Position numbers and translations under genes: made by a program. DNA of 64,000 bases, taken from assembly GCF_001602095.1 (NCBI RefSeq), contig NZ_CP014991.1:1674001-1738000 (forward strand), written 5' to 3'. Source of the stretch: Helicobacter himalayensis (GTDB taxonomy: Bacteria > Campylobacterota > Campylobacteria > Campylobacterales > Helicobacteraceae). Shown here piece after piece: positions 41,012-41,845 of this stretch (position 1 is the first letter of the stretch; each line of letters opens with the position of its first letter). Under the pieces are notes generated by a model that worked only from the letters and a program-made list of their open reading frames with translations, searched no databases and was not told where the DNA came from.

Positions 41012-41845
41012 TTATTTCCTTTTTGCATCACAAAGGACTTTTAGGTCAAGATTCTTATAAATTAGCACCAAAGCAATGCCAATAAAAATCGCTGGCAACA
41101 AAAATGAATCCGCCCCAAAAATCCATAAACTAAGCACGCCTATAACAATACCAATCACGCCTAGCCATTTATGCGTTTTAAACTGCTCTAAAAAAATCAC
41201 AAGAAACACCGCACTCATCACAAATTCCACACCTTGCGTGCTAATGCCATTTTTATGCAAAAGTGTCGCGCTCAAACTCCCGCCTACACAACCAATAACC
41301 CAATAAATCTGATTAAGTAGCGCGATAAAAAAGCAATAAAGGGCGTTTTGAGATTCTACTCCATCAATTAATATCCTCTCGCGTGAATAAATCCCGCTTG
41401 TCTCCGCCGAGCTTTGTTCGCGCTCATATTTGGTGTTGTTTGGTTGATTAGATTCTAAAGTTTGCAAAGGTTTTTTGAGGTTGAGCAGGGCAAAAGTTTC
41501 ATCGGTGAGTGTGAAAATCATATAAAATTTTTTCAAACCTTTATACTTACTAAATGCTCCAAGCATACTAATGCCATAAAAAATATGGCGCGCATTGATG
41601 ACAAATGCCAGCACCACAAGCGCAATAAAATCAAGCCCTTGCGCTAAAAGCTCAACTGCGGCAAACTGCATAACACCCGCATAAATAAACACTGCCATAA
41701 AAAACGCACACAGCACTCCATAGCCCTTTTCATCAAGCATAATGCCAAACGCCGCTCCCATAAGCACATAGCCAAGCATAATAGGCAGGCTCGCCAAAAA
41801 AGCACTTTTAAAAATCTGCCAACGACTTTGCAAGGCGGAATCCAA
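41012..41845 (-). CDS. azlC: AzlC-type amino acid exporter with an in-frame repeat insertion
   Basis: 277 residues of the AzlC family: AFLASLPIMLGYVLMGAAFGIMLDEKGYG, GVMQFAAVELL and NARHIFYGISML, then after an insertion NQIYWVIGCVGGSLSATL. About 35 residues near 130-165 (SNQPNNTKYEREQSSAETSG... to ...LIDGVES) are extra compared with the family and correspond to a full copy of the palindromic element read in frame. The insertion falls in a loop after TDETFALLNLKKP, between membrane helices, so the protein may still fold. The TTG start at 41845 has no strong ribosome site and is uncertain. Confidence 0.85.
   Translation of the reverse strand: MDSALQSRWQIFKSAFLASLPIMLGYVLMGAAFGIMLDEKGYGVLCAFFMAVFIYAGVMQFAAVELLAQGLDFIALVVLAFVINARHIFYGISMLGAFSKYKGLKKFYMIFTLTDETFALLNLKKPLQTLESNQPNNTKYEREQSSAETSGIYSRERILIDGVESQNALYCFFIALLNQIYWVIGCVGGSLSATLLHKNGISTQGVEFVMSAVFLVIFLEQFKTHKWLGVIGIVIGVLSLWIFGADSFLLPAIFIGIALVLIYKNLDLKVLCDAKRK
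41351..41456 (-). repeat. Palindromic element, copy 5, inserted in frame in azlC
   Basis: On the minus strand it reads AGAATCTAATCAACCAAA, then TATGAGCGCGAA, then GGAGACAAGCGGGATTTATT, and ends GGAGTAGAATCT. These runs match copy 1 position for position, apart from about 9 extra bases in the middle. AGAATCT stands at both ends in direct orientation. The reading frame of azlC passes through without stop. Confidence 0.85.

Follow-up and report, generated by a model that had tools for sequence, protein, structure and literature searches.

The AzlC-family protein encoded in the window (the whole stretch of DNA analysed here, 64,000 nucleotides long) contains a loop that, according to a first-pass annotation of the sequence, its family lacks and that is a full copy of a dispersed repeat, read in frame as about 35 residues. 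The locus raises the question of whether a repeat has here become protein sequence and, if so, what kind of element it is, how it enters genes and why its hosts tolerate it. As set out below, the azlC insert very probably belongs to a dispersed repeat family of the Rickettsia palindromic element (RPE) type, which is non-autonomous, restricted to the genus and read within its host proteins; the features on which the argument draws are collected in Table 1.

Table 1 Features of the window, numbered from its first nucleotide
Feature	Position	Strand	Remarks
Intergenic copy	19806-19903	+	Near consensus; 108.2 bits; 5′ stem AACC/GGTT, hairpin GCGGAA/TTCCGC
Diverged copy	30213-30307	+	53.3 bits; overlapping the 5′ end of an ORF (start 30261 or 30314) or immediately upstream of it
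azlC host ORF	41012-41845	-	277 aa, TTG start
Element copy inside azlC	41351-41456	-	106 nt including flanking AGAATCT; covariance model 89.9 bits
AGAATCT word, 3′ end of azlC copy	41351-41357	-	Sister species azlC has AGATTCT here
AGAATCT word, 5′ end of azlC copy	41450-41456	-	Sister species azlC also has AGAATCT here
Intergenic copy	62103-62195	+	76.8 bits

A copy of a dispersed element within azlC

The product of the host ORF matches the AzlC family (Pfam PF03591) with 119.3 bits (cut-off 32.1) over profile positions 1–136 of 137, corresponding to residues 21–195 and spanning the insert. Read on the coding strand, the inserted copy runs AGAATCT-AATCAACCAAACAAC...GTAGAATCT. The two AGAATCT words begin 99 nt apart, so that the insert is in frame, as had been claimed, and amounts to exactly 33 codons (NQPNNTKYERE...IDGVES); the added residues, NQPNNTKYEREQSSAETSGIYSRERILIDGVES, lie between LQTLES and QNALYCFF. 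An AlphaFold model of the protein (mean pLDDT 52, with the insert a coil at ~31–39) was too poor for use.

The claim of a full-length dispersed copy was borne out by blastn, which at E<1e-3 placed the insert at 32 positions in the genome; its closest matches among the other copies are 75–80% identical over 95–106 nt, with E-values down to 1e-15. A covariance model search recovered it with an E-value of 8e-16; this copy is one of the 15 on which the model was trained, and blastn provides the independent support. The intergenic copy at 19806, which the first-pass annotation had matched to the azlC loop, proved to be a member of the same family (108 bits). The hairpin of the azlC copy is damaged, and an Rfam search around the copy gave no match at E≤1.

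AzlC orthologues from outside the genus, which are more distant, have no loop, in agreement with the claim that the family lacks it. The check that had been proposed, a precise empty site in the orthologues, turned out differently: no such site was found in the closest relative, an outcome that the first-pass annotation had itself named as a refutation, and the outgroups lack the whole loop. The closest orthologue, from a sister species (G004; Helicobacter sp. MIT 00-7814 has the identical protein), is free of the element and carries an unrelated, DS/ES-rich loop of 25 residues, TSPQCTQDLQDSKTALEDSQTPADS, flanked at the same positions by AGAATCT and AGATTCT. Given this different loop between the same two words, the event at azlC fits the placing of a cassette between words better than insertion into a gene that had been uninterrupted. 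The 5′ extension of the element is similar to part of the G004 loop (as good a resemblance arose in 0 of 100 shuffles and in 1 of 100 word-anchored pieces), a hint, suggestive only, that this loop too is element debris.

Anatomy and distribution of the family

The element is ~100 nt long, with an approximate consensus of AGAWTCT-A-ATCAACCAAAAAACGCCGAGTATG-RRCGCG-(variable)-AAGCGGAG-CC-GAAGCGGGATTYAYTCCCGC-G-AGGCGATAC-ATTAAAGGAATAGAWTCT, and its ends are AGAWTCT words. Since an upstream extension of ~30 nt (GATTCYAAACAACCAAACAGCGTTGCAGAATCT) is often present, the full unit measures ~126–129 nt, which is also the spacing of tandem arrays. The term “palindromic” fits this element only loosely, because it has a single conserved hairpin (6 bp, GCGGGA/TCCCGC, accompanied by a small second helix) and its DNA folds no better than shuffled sequences (z from +0.06 to -1.5). 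Covariation in the hairpin is small (G-C to A-U at one pair in 4 of 15 sequences), and no terminal inverted repeats of the unit longer than its AGAWTCT ends were seen.

The covariance model, built from 15 copies, found at least 131 copies in the 1.83-Mb genome (E≤0.01), a lower bound given that only the best 150 of 1612 first-look candidates were scored. The same model found at least 69 copies in G004 and 13 weak, diverged copies in a third species (G005). Under stricter filters, 56 other Campylobacterota genomes gave no match to it at E≤1e-3, a result that also serves as a good empirical false-positive control. On the strength of these three counts, the family is limited to part of one genus. 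Phage and plasmid collections held no match to the element, and viral contigs no exact match.

Several individual copies and arrays deserve mention. Six near-identical copies form a tandem array with 129-nt spacing at G000:C1:1058137-1058880, outside any long ORF. The three copies within a GT2 glycosyltransferase gene at 1303704–1304053 are likewise spaced by the ~126–129-nt unit; this gene is one of three paralogues (G000:C1:1303704, 509391 and 523025) that hold 3, 3 and 1 copies beside a poly-G tract, which has 10 G in the intact genes and 9 G in the broken ORF (509391) and looks phase-variable. The diverged copy of the window at 30213–30307 appears as a repeat in a gene leader, with a possible ATG start at 30314. 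The family in G005 is a diverged sister of this one, with the core TATGTGCGCGAAGCGGAG and a peptide ...GSVCARSGA..., and some of its copies too are in frame within ORFs (373, 550, 359 and 240 aa among them).

Insertions in housekeeping genes of two sister species

The phenomenon extends well beyond the single gene in which it had been noticed. We examined the surroundings of 187 copies (130 from the present genome and 57 from G004), counting a copy as in-gene if it lay wholly inside an ORF of at least 150 aa, and found 37 of the 130 in 26 ORFs here and 44 of the 57 in 32 ORFs in the sister species. Hosts in the present genome include TsaD (three copies), LysA, DnaX and a family-5 solute-binding protein (two copies each) and FeoB, as well as an RsmD-family protein, a UvrD-family helicase, glycosyltransferases and, as identified from its sequence, a putative RecG. 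Pfam families represented among the hosts are TsaD, Orn/DAP/Arg decarboxylase (LysA), DnaX lid and AAA, FeoB, SBP_bac_5, AzlC and others, and no second copy of tsaD, lysA or dnaX was found in the genome. In G004, sequence identifies the probable hosts MurD, UvrA, Fbp, DapE, CopA and an ABC-F protein, the first two of which were confirmed by matches to solved structures.

These structures also place the inserts: residues 253–376 of TsaD from the present genome fall between residues 225 and 231 of solved TsaD, residues 240–310 of G004 UvrA between 255 and 262 of 2r6f, and residues 366–436 of G004 MurD between 356 and 364 of 5a5f, the UvrA and MurD inserts replacing loops of 6–7 residues. Many insertions differ between the two species, whose flanking DNA is 82–92% identical, and precise empty sites are available for uvrA, fbp, copA, dapE, feoB and lysA. 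For instance, a 175-nt insert in G004 uvrA corresponds to a single base in the uvrA gene here; the other five sites are similar, some with short unrelated stretches of up to ~60 nt. Of 12 pairs, 11 have a net insert length divisible by 3, the exception being rsmD, where the insert lies near the N-terminus. In the present murD, near G000:C1:1310030-1310063, there is an apparent leftover of the 3′ half of the element (CTTCACTCCCGCAAAAGTGATACATCT) at the place where G004 murD carries a full copy.

Orientation, reading frame and peptide

All 81 in-gene copies lie in the sense orientation and none in antisense, a ratio that overstates the number of independent insertions, as it includes tandem and paralogue copies and derives from 58 ORFs in the two species, orthologous pairs among them. 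All 75 distinct in-gene copies have an open sense frame, which is true by construction, compared to 44 of 94 copies elsewhere. The length between the words (copy length minus 7) is divisible by 3 in 45 of 75 in-gene copies against 25 of 94 elsewhere (Fisher P-value 1.8e-5), and the 3′ end is read in one phase (GIES) in 75 of the 81. The reading frame is kept only in genes, as copies elsewhere drift out of it, and from this indirect evidence we infer that in-gene copies are translated.

The sense-only orientation is not caused by stop codons on the other strand: antisense frames are open in 55 of the 75 in-gene copies (and in 62 of 94 elsewhere). What differs is the peptide, as the sense reading of in-gene copies is hydrophilic (GRAVY -1.08) and the antisense reading hydrophobic (+0.52). 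Selection against hydrophobic loops would be a sufficient explanation of the orientation, and on our best reading it is the hydrophilic character of the sense peptide that makes the repeat tolerable. The exact peptide is probably not what selection keeps, since two 5′ frames are in use (NQPKNAEYERE... and NQKTPSMRAS...) and the peptides differ at the DUF7897 site that is common to both species.

AGAWTCT words and insertion junctions

No other heptamer of the window is as over-represented as the word that bounds the element, which occurs 192 times against 9.9 expected (~19-fold), or ~3 times per kb, at 2.9/kb in coding and 3.8/kb in non-coding DNA; the G004 loci have a similar density. Within ORFs, 128 of 163 occurrences (79%) are in the phase GA[A/T]-TCT, encoding Glu/Asp-Ser. 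Cyanobacteria possess a short palindromic word, the highly iterated palindrome HIP1, in both coding and non-coding DNA. AGAWTCT, itself a 7-bp palindrome, is HIP1-like in its frequency and in its presence in both kinds of DNA and is possibly a methylation or DNA-uptake word; it differs in sequence and in phylum, and in that it also forms the ends and junctions of an element. Literature searches on AGATTCT or on palindromic repeats in Helicobacter returned nothing relevant.

The AGAATCT flanks of the azlC copy had been likened to a target duplication or a site preference; the former cannot be claimed for azlC, and insertion junctions do prefer the word. Of 24 insertion junctions, 12 lie within 6 nt of an AGAWTCT-like word (one mismatch allowed) compared to 16.6% at random (P-value 1.6e-4, computed from blast HSP ends, which are fuzzy, with the two junctions of one gene not being independent); the other 12 are not at the word. 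Against a target duplication at azlC stand the genome-wide over-representation of the word, its presence at the same two places in the element-free sister azlC and the fact that it belongs to the element's own ends. Elsewhere, direct duplications of 9, 17 and 19 nt were found at the dapE, ABC-F-like and rsmD-like inserts and at none of the other nine, and these are made up of AGAWTCT words, as at the ends of the element. In the solute-binding protein gene, a stretch that G004 has between two words (SGFTKEKDGFFYKD) is gone here and two element copies stand in its place.

Origin and maintenance of the element

In the account we propose, neither frame nor direction would matter when an insertion occurs, and selection would then keep only those copies that sit in a tolerant loop, in frame and in sense, where the peptide is hydrophilic. 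As for movement, the element might well, though we put this at slightly less than even, dispense with a transposase of its own and spread by recombination between AGAWTCT words of its ends and of the target. Such recombination could substitute the element for whatever lies between two words of the target, as at azlC and the solute-binding protein gene, and could yield tandem copies; the words would supply the short homology for the joining, and the incoming DNA may have been acquired by transformation. A bolder and doubtful extension would make AGAWTCT a genome-wide joint in the genus, with word-bounded linkers as interchangeable cassettes swapped in by word recombination (e.g. during natural transformation), the repeat as the most successful of them, and many Ser/Asp/Glu-rich linkers, such as that of the sister AzlC, as eroded cassettes.

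Ordinary transposition with target duplication, of a MITE moved in trans by the transposase of a full-length relative, is somewhat unlikely. The element is short, dispersed and non-autonomous, as a MITE would be, and the duplications of 9, 17 and 19 nt point the same way; however, their lengths vary and coincide with the AGAWTCT words of the element ends, terminal inverted repeats of the unit were not seen, and the solute-binding protein gene and azlC look like replacement between two words rather than simple insertion. A search for mobilisers, which covered the Y1 (RAYT/IS200; PF01797) and IS110 families, gave no match to either in the genome, while control genomes gave Y1 matches, so a mobiliser from these two families is discounted. 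It is improbable, too, that the element is kept for a useful function of its peptide or of its hairpin in DNA or RNA, as a linker, a regulatory RNA, a determinant of mRNA stability or an organiser of the chromosome. The strict sense orientation despite frequently open antisense frames, together with the high copy number in two species, would suit such a role, but the peptide is not conserved, many insertions are not shared by the sisters, hydrophobicity of the antisense reading suffices for the orientation, and Rfam gave no match around the azlC copy.

The remaining two readings concern what the insert is. The view of the azlC loop as an ordinary Ser/Asp/Glu-rich linker of this lineage, resembling the repeat only through the frequency of AGAWTCT, is scarcely tenable: the abundance of the word and the sister azlC, whose linker in this position contains such words, lend it some colour, but similarity extends over the whole 106 nt in both the blastn and the model searches, and this full-length alignment refutes it. 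Only marginally more credible is removal of the element after transcription or translation, in the manner of an intron or intein, leaving the host proteins unaltered. It would account for the presence of the element, without breakage, in genes such as tsaD, murD and dnaX, which other bacteria cannot do without, yet a kept frame would be needless if the RNA were spliced, at its size the element falls far short of a self-splicing intron or an intein, and here again the lack of an Rfam match counts against it. The reading that we prefer for azlC is an RPE-type repeat, probably translated with its host.

Relation to known repeats and implications

RPEs are repeats of ~150 bp in ten families (Ogata et al. 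2000, 2002, summarised in PMC10969869), and R. conorii has 44 RPE insertions, nearly half of the elements being in ORFs (PMC10969869). By analogy of layout and behaviour, the present element is RPE-like: it is a short dispersed repeat with many copies, genic and intergenic, in frame in unrelated metabolic genes, individual copies being shared or missing between related species. It differs in occurring in Helicobacter, in length (~100 nt, or ~126–129 nt when extended), in its number of copies (at least ~130), in its weak, one-hairpin palindrome, in its AGAWTCT ends and junctions, in its sense-only orientation in genes and in its frequent tandem copies. MITEs with intragenic ORFs (e.g. ERIC and QMITE1 of Coxiella) are also small and non-autonomous and can form in-frame fusions (PMC10969869), whereas for our element neither terminal inverted repeats nor a constant target duplication nor a parent transposase was found. 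RAYT-mobilised REPs and BIMEs share with it the character of a hairpin-bearing dispersed repeat, but REPs are shorter and extragenic (20–40 bp; PMC3733652) and the genome here has no Y1_Tnp gene.

The first-pass annotation had called the conversion of a repeat into protein rare outside Rickettsiales, and fairly so: a review from 2024 names Rickettsia as exceptional for its unusually high frequency of in-frame insertion and regards the same process in other prokaryotes only as “conceivable” (PMC10969869), and our literature searches found no case of an in-frame repeat in Helicobacter. We appear to be dealing with a selfish in-frame repeat that is new for this genus. Selfish repeats in frame in essential proteins have so far been treated as largely a Rickettsia peculiarity; the same process is now seen in Helicobacteraceae, with more copies, with precise before-and-after pairs from sister species whose flanks are 82–92% identical, and with hosts of solved structure (TsaD, MurD and UvrA). 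Entry into genes, survival in one orientation and effects on the protein thereby become directly testable, and pipelines for domain annotation and phylogeny in this genus should expect repeat-derived insertions in core proteins.
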